Assembly (NCBI GenBank): GCA_012520695.1
Contig: JAAYNU010000132.1
Coordinates: 1-20,253 of the forward strand
Source: Erysipelothrix sp.
Lineage (GTDB): Bacteria; Bacillota_I; Bacilli_A; Erysipelotrichales; Erysipelotrichaceae
Reading direction: 5' to 3'
DNA: 20,253 bases
The position numbers and the translations under genes were made by a program. This document shows positions 1 through 5,436 of the stretch, one piece after another. Numbering within the stretch: position 1 is the first letter of the stretch; each line of letters opens with the position of its first letter. Below the pieces are notes generated by a model that was not told the origin of the DNA, made no database searches, and saw only the letters and a program-made list of their open reading frames with translations.

Positions 1-1400
1 ATATTTCGGACATCAACTAGGATTGCACCTTGTTTCAATTCATTTTTAACTTCGTGCCATTGAACCATGGTCGTAATCTTATGAATGATATTGAATCCAA
101 CATAACCCGCCATATTCACAATGTCCTTTGCGGAACCATAAGGCGGTGCGTATGTGAATTCAAGTTCTTGAAGTTCATCAATTGTTATCTTCGCCTTAAT
201 GGCAGTCGCAATGATATCGATGCGCTTATCGACACCTTTTTGTCCCACTGCTTGTGCACCGAGAATTAAATGAGTATCTGCATCAAAGATGACTTTCAGG
301 TGGATTGGAGTTGCCCCCGGGAAGTATCCAGCATTACTTTTCCCAAGTAGGTGCATTATTTCAATATTTTGGTTTCCTTTTAGCTGCCGCTCATTCAAAC
401 CAGTACTTGCGAAGGATAAATTAAAAATCCTGACAATCGCAGTACCAATACTTCCCTTATTAGTGTTTATAAGACCACTGAGATTATCCGCAAGTTGACG
501 TCCTTGTCTGTTCGCTGGTGAAGCGAGTGATATTAAGGCATCTTGATTATTAATTTGATTGCGAACAATGATCGCGTCCCCCACAGCATAGATATCATCC
601 TGTGATGTCTTATAAGCTTCATCAACAACAATACCGCCGCGCATCCTCTTTTCAACACAGTCAATAAACCCTGTCGCAGGCGCAACACCTACGGAAAGAA
701 TCACAATGTCTGCTTCAATTTCAGTGTTGTCTTCAAGGAATACCGATTGATCACTCATGCGAGTTACAGAAGCACTTGTATAAACATTAATACCGTTTCT
801 CACGAGTTCATTATGAGCAAGCACAGCCAACTCTTCATCAAAAGGTCCTAAGACATGGGATTCACGTTCAATGATACTGACGCGTAAGCCACGATTATGA
901 AGACTCTCAGCCATTTCCAATCCAATGAATCCAGCACCGATTACAACAACGTGCTTAGCACTGGGTAAACTTGTCATGATCGCATCAACATCAGGAATGT
1001 TGCGAACCGTATAAACACTTGGATGAAGATTCATACCCTCTATGTCCGGGATAAAAGGATTCGCTCCTGGTGAGAGTACAAGACTGTCATAAGCGACTTT
1101 AGACTCTATCCCTTCATGAAGCACGGTTAGCTCTTTTAATTCTGGATCAACATGAATTACTTCATGATTCACTCGAATATCAAGTTGAAATCTATTTTGT
1201 AACATCGTTTGATCAGCAACCAATAAATCAGAACGCTCTTCTATTTCACCTGATATATGATACGGTAAACCACAGTTCGCAAAAGATACGTAAGGTCCTT
1301 TGTCTAAGACAATAATATGATCATCTTCATTTAAGCGTCGATACCGTGTCGCAAAACTCATACCACCCGCAACGCCTCCAACTACAACAATTCGTTTCAT
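1..1400 (-). CDS. cdr: CoA-disulfide reductase with C-terminal rhodanese domain (3' end cut by window edge)
   Basis: Open reading frame of 466 codons starting at the ATG at 1400 and running off the left edge without a stop. It is a pyridine nucleotide-disulfide oxidoreductase of the CoA-disulfide / CoA-persulfide reductase type. An FAD-binding GGVAGG loop lies at residues 8-13. The single redox cysteine is Cys43 in SFANCGLPY, as in CoADR and NADH oxidases. A second dinucleotide fold (VVIGAGFIGLEMAE) lies near residue 155, and a second FAD contact (YAVGDA) comes later. The conserved dimerisation domain follows with TYAPPYGSAKDIVNMAGYV. The last visible residues (WHEVKNE...ILVDVRN) are the start of a rhodanese domain, so this is probably the CoADR-RHD fusion; the rhodanese cysteine lies outside the window. 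Family members reduce CoA disulfide or CoA persulfide with NAD(P)H. The gene starts 2 nt after the upstream membrane-protein gene, with a GTGAGGG ribosome site inside that gene, so the two form one operon. Substrate preference is inferred. Confidence 0.9.
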   Translation of the reverse strand, partial: MKRIVVVGGVAGGMSFATRYRRLNEDDHIIVLDKGPYVSFANCGLPYHISGEIEERSDLLVADQTMLQNRFQLDIRVNHEVIHVDPELKELTVLHEGIESKVAYDSLVLSPGANPFIPDIEGMNLHPSVYTVRNIPDVDAIMTSLPSAKHVVVIGAGFIGLEMAESLHNRGLRVSIIERESHVLGPFDEELAVLAHNELVRNGINVYTSASVTRMSDQSVFLEDNTEIEADIVILSVGVAPATGFIDCVEKRMRGGIVVDEAYKTSQDDIYAVGDAIIVRNQINNQDALISLASPANRQGRQLADNLSGLINTNKGSIGTAIVRIFNLSFASTGLNERQLKGNQNIEIMHLLGKSNAGYFPGATPIHLKVIFDADTHLILGAQAVGQKGVDKRIDIIATAIKAKITIDELQELEFTYAPPYGSAKDIVNMAGYVGFNIIHKITTMVQWHEVKNELKQGAILVDVRN

Positions 1401-1402
1401 AA

Positions 1403-1837
1403 TTAAACCCTCACTTTACATGACTCTTTATTAGCCCAGTAAATTCCAATCAGTATGAGCACTAAAGAGATTATTTTATATGGCATCCCTGCCAGTGGTA
1501 ATACCATGACCGAAAATGAAATTCCGATACTCGCAAAAAATGCGATAACACAAGGCGTACAACCATAGGTTAAAATTCCAAATAGAATTGCGACGAACGA
1601 TAAGTTCTCACCCTTGGGATTGAATCCATGCACCTTAAACATCCAGTGACTTAAACTAATTAAGTAGGCACTGAGTACTGCCATAGTTAAGCTGAGAATA
1701 GTATTAATGATCACAAACCCAATGCCATAAGTATCAATGAACTGTCTCATGGGCATATTTAAATGATCAATCACTAAGAATATTACTGAATACGCAATAA
1801 AATATAAACTAAAGTATTTCTTATTAATGTCTTTCAT
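1403..1837 (-). CDS. Four-helix membrane protein with CTPC motif, unknown function
   Basis: I do not recognise a named family. The predicted protein has 144 residues and four hydrophobic segments, at about 9-27, 38-63, 80-106 and 110-134. Segment three carries Cys-Thr-Pro-Cys (residues 93-96, in YGCTPCVIAFFASIG); a third cysteine (140) lies in the short polar C-terminal tail. A proline-framed CxxC inside a membrane helix suggests thiol chemistry or binding of a soft metal or sulfur species. The frame is open further up to an ATG at 1894, but I chose the ATG at 1837. It has an AAGGGAG ribosome site 9 nt upstream, and the longer start would lie upstream of the -10 and operator of its own promoter. 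The gene is first in an operon with CoA-disulfide reductase behind a CsoR/CstR-like operator. A role in sulfur or metal handling is therefore inferred from context only. Confidence 0.8.
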   Translation of the reverse strand: MKDINKKYFSLYFIAYSVIFLVIDHLNMPMRQFIDTYGIGFVIINTILSLTMAVLSAYLISLSHWMFKVHGFNPKGENLSFVAILFGILTYGCTPCVIAFFASIGISFSVMVLPLAGMPYKIISLVLILIGIYWANKESCKVRV

Positions 1838-1846
1838 GGTATCAAT

Positions 1847-1853
1847 CTCCCTT
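1847..1853 (-). promoter_or_regulatory. Ribosome binding site that fixes the start of the CTPC membrane protein
   Basis: The minus strand reads AAGGGAG, 9 nt before the ATG at 1837. No comparable site precedes the in-frame ATG at 1894. Confidence 0.75.
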
Positions 1854-1860
1854 ATGAAAT

Positions 1861-1890
1861 AGTATACCCCATGGGGTATATGGATATCAA
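1861..1890 (-). promoter_or_regulatory. Sigma-A-type promoter of the CTPC/CoADR operon
   Basis: On the minus strand, a -35 TTGATA (1885-1890), an 18-nt spacer and a -10 TATACT (1861-1866). Expected transcription start is near 1853, giving a leader of about 15 nt that is mostly the ribosome binding site. The palindromic operator fills the spacer and overlaps the -10. Confidence 0.75.
1863..1880. promoter_or_regulatory. Perfect 18-bp palindromic operator, CsoR/CstR type
   Basis: TATACCCCATGGGGTATA is identical to its own reverse complement over all 18 bases. AT-flanked TACCCC/GGGGTA arms match the known operator style of the CsoR family (copper-sensing CsoR, persulfide-sensing CstR). It sits between -35 and -10, so a bound repressor would block RNA polymerase. 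The neighbouring CoADR-rhodanese gene favours a persulfide sensor over a copper sensor, but the sequence alone does not decide this. No regulator gene lies in the window. Confidence 0.8.
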
Positions 1891-1946: not shown

Positions 1947-2753
1947 TTAACCAGCAACCTTCGCACGCAGTGCAGAAGATAACCATTCAACAAACACAAC
2001 AAGAATAATAAGGCCCCATAGGATCGCTCCTACATCAGCCCATCTGAATGCACTCATTGCCATTACCAACGGTGTACCAATACCACCTGCGTCCACTAAT
2101 CCAAGGATTGTGGCGTTTTTAACGTTAATTTCAAATCGATAAATTGCGATGGATAGAAAGTTTCCAAACAGTTGCGGAATGATTCCGAAACGAATCTTTT
2201 GGAAGTTTGAACTACCAGAAGCATCCAGTGATTCAATGATGCCTACATCAAGATCTTCAATCGCTTCGATGAAGAGTTTTGATATCATCCCAATTGAGGT
2301 TAGTGCCAGCGTTAATACACCCGCAAACGGCCCTGCCCCAGTAACTACGATAATCAGTAACCCGTATACAAATGGCGGGAATGTTCTGATTACAGTAATA
2401 ATAAAGATTCCAATTGCTGAGAACCATTTCGGAACGATGTTACGCGCTGATAGAAACGAGAATGGAATCGCAAGAATCATTCCAAGAAGTGTTCCTAGAA
2501 ATGCGATCGTGACTGTTTCAAGTACGAGTTGTGGAATACTACCACGCCCAAAACTAAAGAGCATTTTTTGGTTGGGTTTAATCAACCCTGAAAAAATAGA
2601 TTGAATGACTCGAAGTCCGTTCTCTTCAATACCGTTATAGTCAACATAAGACCATGACCACGCGAGAATTAAAAATAATGGAATTCCAATGATTAATATT
2701 TTCTTAAGTCTACGAGGTCTTTGTTCAAAGACTAATTGTACATTTTCATTCAT
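1947..2753 (-). CDS. phnE: Phosphonate-type ABC transporter permease PhnE (second copy)
   Basis: Predicted 268-residue inner-membrane permease with about six hydrophobic segments, the first near residues 18-33. The cytoplasmic EAA-type coupling loop that docks on the ATPase is seen at about 173-194 (ESLDASGSSNFQKIRFGIIPQ). The family's C-terminal motif follows as NVKNATILGLVDAGGIG (210-226). Last gene of the phnDCEE operon; its ATG shares a base with the stop of the first phnE (TAATG), so translation is probably coupled. The two permeases are clearly related but not near-identical, which suggests they pair as a heterodimer. It ends next to a strong terminator. Confidence 0.92.
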   Translation of the reverse strand: MNENVQLVFEQRPRRLKKILIIGIPLFLILAWSWSYVDYNGIEENGLRVIQSIFSGLIKPNQKMLFSFGRGSIPQLVLETVTIAFLGTLLGMILAIPFSFLSARNIVPKWFSAIGIFIITVIRTFPPFVYGLLIIVVTGAGPFAGVLTLALTSIGMISKLFIEAIEDLDVGIIESLDASGSSNFQKIRFGIIPQLFGNFLSIAIYRFEINVKNATILGLVDAGGIGTPLVMAMSAFRWADVGAILWGLIILVVFVEWLSSALRAKVAG

Positions 2754-3574
2754 TAGACTAACCTCTTTCTAATCACTCGTGAAAGGGTTTCGATAATCAC
2801 AACAGTTACAAGTAAGAGAATCAAGACAACCGACAAGTCGGCGTACATACGCAAACTGATGCGGTCATTCATCAAGATTCCGATTCCCCCCGCTCCAACG
2901 TATCCAAGGATCGCCGCTGAACGGATATTCATTTCGAGATTATAAAGTAAGTTTGAGATATAGAAACCTGATATTTGAGGTACGATTGATACTACAAATG
3001 CTTTCATACGACTTGTCCCTGCTGAAAGTGATGCTTCGAAAGGCCCCATATCAACAAGTTCAATTTGCTCATACGTCATCTTCGCAAGAATAGACGTTGT
3101 GAATAAGAATAAAGCCATCGTTCCTGTGAATGTTCCAATTCCAAAGATATACGTAAGTATTAATGCAAGCATTAATACTGGAACTGTTCTGAAGATACTC
3201 ATAAAAAAGCGGAACAGTGTTCTCATGATTCTATTATCATTCATATTAACTGCGGAATAGTATGCCAGTGGCAAACCAAAGAGTCCTGCTAAGAATGTAC
3301 CGAAGATACTCATACCAATTGTTTGAAACATTGGGTCCCATACTTTTGGTAAATAGTCCCAGTTTGGTGGAACCATTTTTCTTAAGATGACTAAGAATTT
3401 GTCGCCTCGTCTAATCAACAGACCGATATCAAAATTTGCGACATCCATAGAGATTCCTACGAGCACAAGCATAATAATGCTGGCAAGTAAACCACTACGA
3501 AACGGTCTCTTAACTTCTTTACCGTTATCGAGGACCAAGGGTTTCGGAAAGAAGATTGATTTAATCTCTTTCAT
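2753..3574 (-). CDS. phnE: Phosphonate-type ABC transporter permease PhnE (first copy)
   Basis: Predicted 273-residue permease. The cytoplasmic N-terminus is unusually long (about 28 polar residues), followed by about six membrane segments. The EAA loop lies at 180-200 (EASLSAGTSRMKAFVVSIVPQ) and the family motif NIRSAAILGYVGAGGIG near 216-232. Start and stop both overlap neighbouring genes by one base (TAATG), so the ATPase, this permease and the next are likely made in fixed proportion. Together with the second PhnE it should form the membrane channel of the importer. Confidence 0.92.
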   Translation of the reverse strand: MKEIKSIFFPKPLVLDNGKEVKRPFRSGLLASIIMLVLVGISMDVANFDIGLLIRRGDKFLVILRKMVPPNWDYLPKVWDPMFQTIGMSIFGTFLAGLFGLPLAYYSAVNMNDNRIMRTLFRFFMSIFRTVPVLMLALILTYIFGIGTFTGTMALFLFTTSILAKMTYEQIELVDMGPFEASLSAGTSRMKAFVVSIVPQISGFYISNLLYNLEMNIRSAAILGYVGAGGIGILMNDRISLRMYADLSVVLILLLVTVVIIETLSRVIRKRLV

Positions 3575-4341
3575 TATTTCGATACCATGATTTCATCGTC
3601 GCTCAGTTCACGTCCGTATACTTTTTGAAGTACAGACTCATCAACTGAATCAGCAGGTCCATCAAAGACAATTTCTCCTGCTTTTATACCGATAACACGT
3701 TTTGCATATTTAAGTGCAAGATCCACGTGATGAATGTTGATGATTACAGTAATGTTGAGGTCTCCATTGATGCGAACAAAATCATCCATGACTTGTTCTG
3801 CAGTAACCGGGTCAAGTGATGCTACTGGTTCATCCGCAAGAATAATTTGCGGATTTTGTGCGAGGCATCGCGCCAAAGCAACACGTTGTTGTTGCCCACC
3901 AGATAACTGGTCCGCTCGTGAATATGCTTTATCTAAGATACCTACTTGATCAAGAGCACTCAGACTTGAGAGTACATCCTCTTTGGAATATATTCCAAGG
4001 ATTGATTTCCATAATGGCATATCAGCAACTTTTGCAGTGAGAACATTTTTTAGTACTGTTGTTCTTTTTACAAGGTTAAAGGATTGAAACACCATCCCTA
4101 TGTTGCGTCTGAATAGGCGCAGGGACTTCCCTTTCAATTGAGATACGTTTTGCGAGTTTACAAGGAGTTCACCTGAAGTAATTGGGTGCATTTGGTTGAT
4201 TGCACGCAACAGTGTTGATTTACCGGCTCCTGAAAGTCCGATGATCGCCACAAATTCCCCTTGTTCAATTGTGAGGCTGGCATTTTTAAGTGCCTCTGTT
4301 CCATTTGGGTATATTTTCCCAACTTCTTTAAATTCAATCAT
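3574..4341 (-). CDS. phnC: Phosphonate-type ABC transporter ATPase PhnC
   Basis: Predicted 255-residue ABC ATPase with every key motif present: Walker A GLSGAGKST (35-43), Q-loop Gln86, signature LSGGQQQRVALARCL (146-160), Walker B IILADEP (166-172) and switch His204 (INIHHVDLA). The H-loop context and overall length are typical of PhnC rather than of amino acid or lipoprotein ATPases. It would power uptake by the two PhnE subunits. The ATG at 4341 has an AAGGGA site 7 nt upstream. It is separated from phnD by 52 nt that contain a terminator-like hairpin, so it may be expressed below phnD. Confidence 0.93.
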   Translation of the reverse strand: MIEFKEVGKIYPNGTEALKNASLTIEQGEFVAIIGLSGAGKSTLLRAINQMHPITSGELLVNSQNVSQLKGKSLRLFRRNIGMVFQSFNLVKRTTVLKNVLTAKVADMPLWKSILGIYSKEDVLSSLSALDQVGILDKAYSRADQLSGGQQQRVALARCLAQNPQIILADEPVASLDPVTAEQVMDDFVRINGDLNITVIINIHHVDLALKYAKRVIGIKAGEIVFDGPADSVDESVLQKVYGRELSDDEIMVSK

Positions 4342-4355
4342 ATGATTTCCCTTCT

Positions 4356-4383
4356 AAAAAGAGGGCGAACCCTTTGCTCGCCC
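4356..4383 (-). terminator. Hairpin between phnD and phnC, probable partial terminator (attenuator)
   Basis: Minus strand: stem GGGCGA (4383-4378), 9-nt loop, stem TCGCCC (4368-4363), then TCTTTTT (4362-4356). It looks like a moderate intrinsic terminator or RNA-stabilising hairpin inside the operon. This is a common way to make more binding protein than transporter. Confidence 0.7.
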
Positions 4384-4393
4384 ACTGTTTCAA

Positions 4394-5404
4394 TTATTTA
4401 ACTAATTCTAAACTCTTACGAGCTGGCTCATAGTCTGCATCCGTAGCGATCATATAACCATCATGGCTATAAATAGCGATTGCTTCTTTTCCAGCTTCTG
4501 TTTTAGCTAGTTCAATAAATACTGTTTGTAGTGCTTTCTTTAGATCTGCATCAACAAGTTCATTTGATACTGAAATCGTATCGTTCATGATACCTTCTGT
4601 TACTCCAAGAATTGAAGTTTCAGTGAAGATGTCTGTTTTGCCCCAGTCGTTTACCCATTGTTCTGCGTAATCACGACGGATGTCTGCATAACCAACACCT
4701 ACATCACATTGACCATTTGATAGGCGTGCTGCGACGTCAGTATAGCTTGTTGCTAGAACCTTGTTTGAAAGATCAGCCACTGTTTTTCCTTCGTAGCGTT
4801 CTGCTAACCAAAGTGAAGGATAAATGTATCCTGCTGATGACGATGAGTTCATGTGACACCAGTTTGCTGAATCAAAGTCTTCCCAAGTTAATTCAACACC
4901 TGAGTTTACTTTTTCTGTTAATTCTTTCGCTTTTGCGGTTGTTCCACCATAGATTAATGAACGGTAGAATGTTACTTGCTCATCTGTTGGAAGAGTTGGT
5001 AAACCATCATTCCAATCTTTTGCGTCTACGGAGTCTTTGTTAAGACCATCGCGCGTTGATGCTAAAATAACATCAATTTCTTGATTTTCTGAATACAGTG
5101 CATAGGTTCCCCCTGGGATAAATCCTATATGTGCTGAGCCGTTAGCAAGTGCTTCTCCCGCACCTTCGTATGAATTCGATACACGAATATCAACGTTTCC
5201 GACTGTGTAACCTTCTAATTTCAAACCATCAATAACTAATTGCTTGATTGGTTCAATACGAGTCTCGATTTGTTCTGCATCGCGACTTGGTACGAAGAAT
5301 ATTACAAGTTCATCGATTTCTTTTGAGCCTACGCCCTCAGATCCCTTTGAACAACCACTGAGAACTAAAAATAATGCTAAAGATAAAACTAAAAGTTTCT
5401 TCAT
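4394..5404 (-). CDS. phnD: Phosphonate/phosphite-type substrate-binding lipoprotein PhnD
   Basis: Predicted 336 residues. The N-terminus is a lipoprotein signal (MKKLLVLSLALFLVLSGC, lipobox LSGC with Cys18 as lipid anchor), so the mature protein sits on the outer face of the membrane. The body has PhnD-family features: an early VIFFVPSRDAE strand, GSAHIGFIPGGTYAL, the substrate-pocket-like SSSSAGYIYP, and CDVGVGYAD. The ATG at 5404 was chosen, because GGGAG lies 7 nt upstream; a TTG one codon earlier would be too close. First gene of the operon, about 26 nt behind its promoter. Family members bind phosphonates, phosphite, methylphosphonate or related anions. No C-P lyase or phosphonatase is in view, so the actual ligand is unknown. 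Confidence 0.9.
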   Translation of the reverse strand: MKKLLVLSLALFLVLSGCSKGSEGVGSKEIDELVIFFVPSRDAEQIETRIEPIKQLVIDGLKLEGYTVGNVDIRVSNSYEGAGEALANGSAHIGFIPGGTYALYSENQEIDVILASTRDGLNKDSVDAKDWNDGLPTLPTDEQVTFYRSLIYGGTTAKAKELTEKVNSGVELTWEDFDSANWCHMNSSSSAGYIYPSLWLAERYEGKTVADLSNKVLATSYTDVAARLSNGQCDVGVGYADIRRDYAEQWVNDWGKTDIFTETSILGVTEGIMNDTISVSNELVDADLKKALQTVFIELAKTEAGKEAIAIYSHDGYMIATDADYEPARKSLELVK

Positions 5405-5436
5405 CAAATATCTCCCTTTGTCCTTATGACACTTGA

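Follow-up and report, generated by a model that had tools for sequence, protein, structure and literature searches.

The window, i.e., the whole stretch of 20,253 nucleotides of an Erysipelothrix sp. contig (C23) that was analysed, opens with an incomplete operon on the minus strand, the features of which are collected in Table 1. A perfect 18-bp palindrome, TATACCCCATGGGGTATA, precedes the gene of a predicted membrane protein, here called MEM, which is followed after 2 bases by the gene of a flavoprotein resembling CoA-disulfide and CoA-persulfide reductases (CoADR/CoAPR). The palindrome, a candidate operator, is unique in the window when up to 3 mismatches are allowed, none of 100 shuffles yields a match, and the exact 18-mer occurs once in the genome. 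A minus-strand promoter of sigma-70-like form (1890-1861) is overlapped by it; in this promoter, TTGATA and TATACT are separated by 18 nt and 10 of 12 positions agree with the consensus, in a stretch where promoter-like matches as such are at chance level (2 found versus 2.7 expected). In several relatives, the right operator half-site merges into TATAAT. The start of MEM was taken to be the ATG, whereas the mechanical list of open reading frames instead begins at a TTG, at 1894.

Table 1. Features of the operon at the left edge of the window
Feature	Position	Strand	Basis
Operator palindrome TATACCCCATGGGGTATA (candidate)	1863..1880	-	Pattern and shuffles; sites of the same form ahead of orthologous operons
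-35-like hexamer TTGATA	1885..1890	-	Consensus match only
-10-like hexamer TATACT	1861..1866	-	Consensus match; overlapped by the operator
Shine-Dalgarno-like AGGGAG, 9 nt ahead of the MEM ATG	1847..1852	-	Read off the sequence
MEM, 144 aa, predicted four-helix membrane protein	1403..1837	-	Open reading frame, structure model, alignment
CoADR/CoAPR-like flavoprotein with Cys43; its C-terminal rhodanese domain begins here but is truncated by the contig end	3..1400	-	Open reading frame, profile and structure-sequence matches

Directly upstream of the operon, a phosphonate-type ABC transporter set (two PhnE, PhnC and PhnD-like) occupies positions 1947-5407 and is closed by a terminator-like hairpin at 1920-1941. 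An apparently similar set, judged by sequence starts only, adjoins the genes TR-PDO-MEM-CstR, where TR stands for a thioredoxin-reductase-like gene, in another genome (G009, locus L073).

The CoADR part of the flavoprotein aligns with its best solved relative, the CoA-persulfide reductase 8a56, over 466 of 466 residues (E 1.2e-164) and retains the active-site Cys43; with the rhodanese piece on contig C261 described below, the combination of a CoADR core and a rhodanese domain that is typical of CoAPR is present. Its score against the CoA-disulfide reductase family TIGR03385 of NCBIfam (432.6 bits versus a cut-off of 578.8) was obtained on a protein cut by the contig end. The left edge of the window is indeed the end of contig C23, which breaks the gene inside the rhodanese domain. 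A second contig, C261, opens with a C-terminal rhodanese piece (PF00581, 32.9 bits, L061:1-234), which appears to be the remainder of the last gene of the window. Its frame stops at base 234, right where a CstR-like regulator gene has already started at base 224 (L061:224-460). Estimated from the tails of related full-length CoAPRs, about 8-9 rhodanese residues are absent between C23 and C261, which remain unjoined in an assembly that is 88% complete. The longest contig listed for the MEM protein P0009 (98%) measures 61,278 bases, as does that for the CstR protein P0195 (100%), an agreement suggesting that one metagenome contig carries both genes. Farther along C261 lie genes which we take, from their sequence by eye, to be S21-like and PhoH-like. 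As reconstructed over the two contigs, the order of the operon thus reads operator, MEM, CoAPR/rhodanese and CstR-like regulator. An earlier note, made from the letters of this stretch, had pointed to a perfect palindrome in the promoter of a membrane protein that it could assign to no family and of a CoA-disulfide reductase with a rhodanese extension, all of which holds, and had suggested that the regulator might lie beyond the left edge, which is where a CsoR-family gene now appears to be, directly behind a rhodanese piece of the kind that the window gene lacks.

A PF02583 profile search of the same genome (88% complete) returned one CsoR-family gene, G000:C261:236-424 (E 3.2e-20). The regulator scores 74 bits to PF02583, as expected for the CsoR/DUF156 fold, and among solved structures its sequence is closest to 7mq1, the CstR of Streptococcus pneumoniae. 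Its cysteine pattern, which the earlier note had left to be looked up, consists of Cys3, in an MKC start, and Cys31, with Asn56 and Ala60 at the positions of the HxxxC copper motif of CsoR, so that Cys31 is all that is present of the CsoR Cu(I) site. Because Asn56 and Ala60 replace HxxxC, copper sensing by this regulator is considered unlikely. A broader version of that idea, in which the regulator senses copper, or another metal bound by Cys3 and Cys31, and the operon responds to that metal, draws on a fold family common to CsoR and InrS, on the contribution of the N-terminal region to metal binding in RcnR and InrS, mentioned in a study on FrmR (PMC5016687), and on the existence of copper-type ATPases in the same genome. 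It is nonetheless very improbable, given the residues at the HxxxC positions, the location of these P-ATPases on other contigs (in the one genome searched for them) and operon partners consisting of CoAPR, rhodanese, thioredoxin (Trx), TR, PDO and MEM.

The features expected of CstR are divided. Cys31 stands at the start of helix 2 and the copper histidine is absent, as in CstR, but Cys60 is missing. The regulator also has no Pro2, the N-terminal residue of FrmR, and reaches 45.5 bits against the NCBIfam FrmR family, with a cut-off of 133. As Ala60 is found together with Cys3 instead, the protein was therefore named "CstR-like, Cys3 type" rather than a canonical CstR. In the predicted monomer of the 99% identical P0186, helix 1 begins at residue 5 and Cys31 opens helix 2, which would put Cys3 at the unattached end of helix 1. 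From hairpin geometry, this end would lie close to the distal part of helix 2, in the place of Cys60. In a sequence comparison with FrmR, Cys3 comes roughly one helical turn after Pro2. A thiol switch between Cys3 and Cys31 of another subunit (Cys31') is the likely reading of this arrangement.

The exchange of cysteines was followed in 230 distinct CstR-clade proteins, taken as the best 120 from each of two profile searches (of 1265 and 6478 passing), where the two profiles represented the two cysteine types and the sampling follows them. Cys3 alone is found in 84 proteins, Cys3 with Cys60 in 24, Cys60 alone in 119 and neither in 3 (P0201, P0348 with Tyr3 and Ser60, and P0167, which has a truncated start; one of the three has Trp3). 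When Cys60 is the only one of the two, residue 3 is Tyr (117 proteins) or His (2). Cys31 and Asn56 are present in all 230 sampled proteins, Cys31 being the only universal cysteine among them. This universality, together with P0201 and P0348, which have neither Cys3 nor Cys60, would fit a persulfide-sensing CstR unit operated by Cys31 alone, as a persulfide or a mixed disulfide with CoA, in which Cys3 is incidental. Such a switch is unlikely, as Cys3 or Cys60 is retained in 227 of the 230 proteins and as the CstR of Staphylococcus aureus makes C31-C60' bridges between subunits (PMC5480029). A Cys3-Cys31' pair stays the preferred reading. In the set of loci collected at family level, 21 of 21 regulators have Cys3 and Cys31, with Cys60 in addition in five (G129, G143, G108, G190 and G203), three of which are the same protein. 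At class level, all 16 further strong matches carry Cys3 and none carries Cys60, a count which excludes five weaker matches (L263-L267) devoid of Cys3.

On a tree of 93 of 231 rows, kept after the removal of near-identical ones (P0167 and P0348 among those removed), the Cys3-only state requires at least three changes. The tree relies on 84 columns, both trait columns being kept in, leaves many forks unresolved and is rooted for drawing only, with the direction unset; the cysteine exchange is backed by few independent changes. An extra Cys14 is seen in P0189, P0194, P0198 and P0213, i.e., four of the eight proteins of a Cys3-only branch that includes Breznakia.

The 21 family-level loci come from 19 genomes of the window's family, its own included, with two Acholeplasmataceae loci. 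The CstR-like gene accompanies CoAPR-rhodanese (CoAPR-Rhd), separate rhodaneses, thioredoxin, TR-PDO or MEM in these loci, in which only chosen families were labelled and other partners may be missed. A site of the form TACC...GGTA with at most 2 mismatches to TACCCCNNGGGGTA is present in 18 of the 21 loci; for the genome of the window, it lies in the window and not on C261. The contig of L062 begins inside TR and no site is seen. By the same definition, there is no site in L168, in L249, which encodes the same protein, or at the Trx-CstR operon of G203 (L206), a genome whose sites precede MEM and Rhd-CoAPR-Rhd; within L206 itself, MEM has the one site present. The arrangement characteristic of CstR, in which a palindrome with G-tracts precedes an operon for persulfide or sulfur-transfer enzymes, is therefore found with the exceptions of L062, L168, L249 and the Trx-CstR operon of G203. 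Among the 16 strong class-level matches (E <=4.7e-29), to which L249 belongs, TR is a neighbour in 12, with PDO also visible in 11, the rest being CoAPR-Rhd-Rhd-CstR (3) and Rhd-CstR opposite MEM (1), and the site is present in 12 of the 16 loci. One PDO that was scanned (L116) scores above the cut-off of TIGR02187.

In other families of the class (L250-L256 and L258-L262), a Cys3-type CstR heads an operon with a TR-like gene behind the same kind of operator. PDO joins these TR operons where visible, and TR and PDO are candidate reactive-sulfur genes.

Some of these neighbours would also suit a regulator whose signal is not persulfide but a different oxidant of thiols or an electrophile (peroxide, HOCl or a formaldehyde-like compound). 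Thioredoxin, TR/PDO and MsrB are compatible with general thiol stress, an ORF read by eye as glutathione-peroxidase-like lies near CstR in L073 (4202-4705), and formaldehyde is sensed by FrmR at the same N-terminal corner (PMC5016687). Set against this, CoAPR and rhodaneses, which recur in these operons among the chosen families labelled, are sulfur-transfer enzymes, and a non-persulfide signal is accordingly held to be improbable. Persulfide sensing is preferred.

Of the 13 Erysipelothrix genomes, 12 contain TATACC-N6-GGTATA, with 20 sites in all, compared with 3 matches to the reversed control pattern. Nineteen of the 20 precede CstR operons, MEM, Rhd-Rhd (G199 and G213, the latter judged from the same gene start as in G199) or Rhd-CoAPR-Rhd (G203). 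The twentieth (G000:C222:3840-3857, L242) has no G-tract, lies between ORFs read by eye as ChbG-like and peptidyl-prolyl isomerase-like, and is probably a chance occurrence; it was not counted as part of the regulon. The remaining genome, G082, has no such site, one match to a looser pattern, and neither CstR nor MEM was found there. CstR and MEM are both present in 11 of the 13 genomes, and G188 has CstR and a site with no MEM found. MEM is preceded by TACC-N6-GGTA, 24-54 bp from its start, in 10 of these 11 genomes, including cases in which it is not linked to CstR; in G193, for example, MEM is located about 617 kb away from the CstR gene. The MEM sites of G199 and G213 show 3 differences from TACCCCNNGGGGTA, and the MEM of G256, located behind TR-PDO, has no operator. 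Sites are found at separate loci of one genome in G199, G203, G213 and G193. These sites suggest that, within this genus, MEM belongs to the CstR regulon even when unlinked.

Two other patterns were discarded. The first operator pattern, with N4 between the tracts, had the wrong spacing, and the looser 14-base pattern TACCCCNNGGGGTA with 1 mismatch was unselective (19 matches in 13 genomes versus 24 for the reversed control).

MEM matched no family of Pfam or NCBIfam at E up to 1. Over 65 members, Pfam gave scattered weak matches, the best at 0.0032 (DUF2162, 4 members), and a fold search with the model (pLDDT 76.7) gave no significant match. No clear resemblance to membrane families known from sulfur or thiol systems (TauE, YeeE/YedE, DsbD/CcdA, DsbB/VKOR) emerged from these comparisons. 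In all, 451 MEM proteins were found, with no Pfam domain among the 120 listed. MEM is, as far as sequence comparison goes, a separate and widespread family of no recognised affiliation. The CTPC motif occupies residues 93-96 (Cys93 and Cys96) of the third helix and Cys140 is close to the C-terminus. Residues invariant in the 65 aligned proteins include D24, N27, F86, G87, T90-T94 (TYGCT), C96, P114, G117, P119-K121 and C140. In the model, the chain forms four long helical segments and is interrupted at 90-93, where CTPC starts and where confidence is low. Positive charges suggest that both ends of the protein are inside.

A labelled redox or sulfur gene (CoAPR, CsoR, rhodanese, TR, PDO, Trx, MsrB, NifX-like or MinD-ferredoxin) lies within three ORFs of MEM at 22 of 79 named loci and none does at the other 57. 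Such labels fall on 36 of 429 near ORFs versus 2 of 596 far ORFs, a contrast biased upwards as the labels were picked after viewing the neighbourhoods. One of the 7 CsoR neighbours in this census (L152) is of copper type, beside an apparent metal ATPase, and not a CstR. A site with at most 1 mismatch lies upstream of 5 of 76 MEM genes versus 3 of 955 other ORFs, and even when 2 mismatches are allowed, 70 of these 76 genes, all from named loci, lack an operator. Together with the 57 loci devoid of a labelled neighbour, this indicates that MEM is not confined to the CstR system. The recurrent orders TR-PDO-MEM (L062, L073, L148 and L244), MEM-TR-PDO (L116 and L141) and MEM-CoAPR (the window, L131, L137, L143 and L151) make a role in thiol redox or with sulfane sulfur the best guess, and MEM is probably a thiol or sulfane-sulfur relay.

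Further MEM loci were also noted (L094, L099, L100, L105 and L110; L125, L149, L161 and L164). In several of Acholeplasmataceae type, the genes after MEM encode a TetR regulator and an ABC transporter, and none of those nearby carries a sulfur label; in others, DUF5320, NifX-like and MinD-ferredoxin genes are ahead of MEM.

With an operator, a gene order (over two contigs), regulon sites and a cysteine exchange that can be read in the DNA, it is fairly probable that the window operon is a CstR-type reactive-sulfur response unit, including the Cys3-Cys31' switch and MEM as proposed here. As its family would predict, the CsoR-family repressor, whose gene closes the operon on C261, would bind the palindrome overlapping the -10 box and block transcription. 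Rising persulfides or polysulfides, a signal likewise taken from the family, would modify Cys31 of the regulator. In this subfamily, Cys3, at the tip of helix 1, would act as the resolving thiol in place of a Cys60 towards the end of helix 2, and a conjectural Cys3-Sn-Cys31' bridge between subunits would release the DNA. The CoADR-rhodanese protein, if it follows the chemistry of CoAPR enzymes, would pass sulfane sulfur through its rhodanese domain and reduce CoA persulfide with NAD(P)H. MEM, with CTxC in helix 3 and a cysteine at the end of helix 4, would most likely handle thiol reducing equivalents, or sulfane sulfur or sulfide, at the membrane, an action we infer. A wider proposal is tentative and put at slightly less than an even chance: a CstR subfamily of Erysipelotrichia and related Bacilli would, in the absence of Cys60, sense persulfide with a Cys3/Cys31' dithiol, the thiol counterpart of the N-terminal corner of FrmR, and its regulon would include a new family of small CTxC membrane proteins that, alongside CoAPR or TR/PDO, carry sulfane sulfur or electrons from thiols through the membrane or along it.

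The earlier note had suggested a variant reactive-sulfur response unit, which the regulator family, the operon partners and the regulon sites support. It would have abandoned the idea had the genome contained no CsoR-family gene or had the palindrome been absent at orthologous operons; the gene exists, and palindromes of the same kind stand ahead of such operons in related genomes. The note had also envisaged a second operator copy ahead of the regulator gene; in this genome, the exact 18-mer was found once, in the window and not on C261. Beyond what the note had foreseen, the regulator seems to be a Cys3-type variant and MEM a separate, widespread family that joins the regulon in this genus. 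By all the sequence evidence, this is a real reactive-sulfur response unit. Members of the CsoR family sense copper, nickel, formaldehyde or persulfide on nearly one scaffold. If the resolving cysteine has naturally moved between the end of helix 2 and the tip of helix 1, and some relatives have both cysteines, this would show which corner of the scaffold lends itself to re-use, and the Cys3/Cys60 variants are a ready natural set for probing the specificity of persulfide sensors. In an operon without TauE and SQR, the conserved MEM is a candidate for the membrane-side handling of thiol redox or sulfane sulfur.

Units of this class are already known. In the portion of the literature searched, the cysteine arrangement of the sensor and the membrane partner are undescribed, and no report of an Erysipelothrix CstR or of a CstR with an N-terminal cysteine was found. 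In Enterococcus faecalis, a cst-like operon comprises CstR, RhdA, RhdB and CoAPR, and CstR is a di-thiol protein with C31 and C62 (PMC9405070). The window shares with it a CsoR-family repressor accompanied by a CoAPR-rhodanese, and its relatives L084, L086, L200 and L201 have separate rhodaneses before and after CoAPR. It differs by the Cys3 and Cys31 of its regulator, by the addition of MEM and, in the visible part, by having no separate rhodanese gene. In S. aureus, tauE, cstA, cstB and sqr are under the control of CstR (PMC5480029), which bridges C31 to C60' and of which the C31A/C60A variant is called inactive (PMC5480029, PMC9774590). The repressor is of the same family, and a membrane protein also stands alongside sulfur-transfer enzymes, but the window has MEM and CoAPR in place of TauE, CstA, CstB and SQR. 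Furthermore, S. aureus CstR probably regulates one operon directly (PMC5480029), whereas sites occur at separate loci in G199, G203, G213 and G193. The CstR of S. pneumoniae (7mq1, 7mq2 and 7mq3) has a cysteine where the window regulator has Ala60, and its third cysteine (C9, Ala in the crystals) aligns with residue 10 of the window regulator and not with Cys3. TTHA1953 of Thermus (PMC10318464) and YrkD of Bacillus licheniformis (PMC9918477) likewise belong to the CsoR family, control sulfur genes and need cysteines for their binding to DNA; they differ in that TTHA1953 has C39/C68 and YrkD reportedly has both cysteines conserved in CstR. A parallel to the proposed position of Cys3 is offered by FrmR, which has the same fold and in which the conserved cysteine, Cys35, is paired with an N-terminal residue of another subunit, Pro2, at 3.0-3.2 A. 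In FrmR, however, this residue is a proline that reacts with formaldehyde, and the operon is a different one (PMC5016687).
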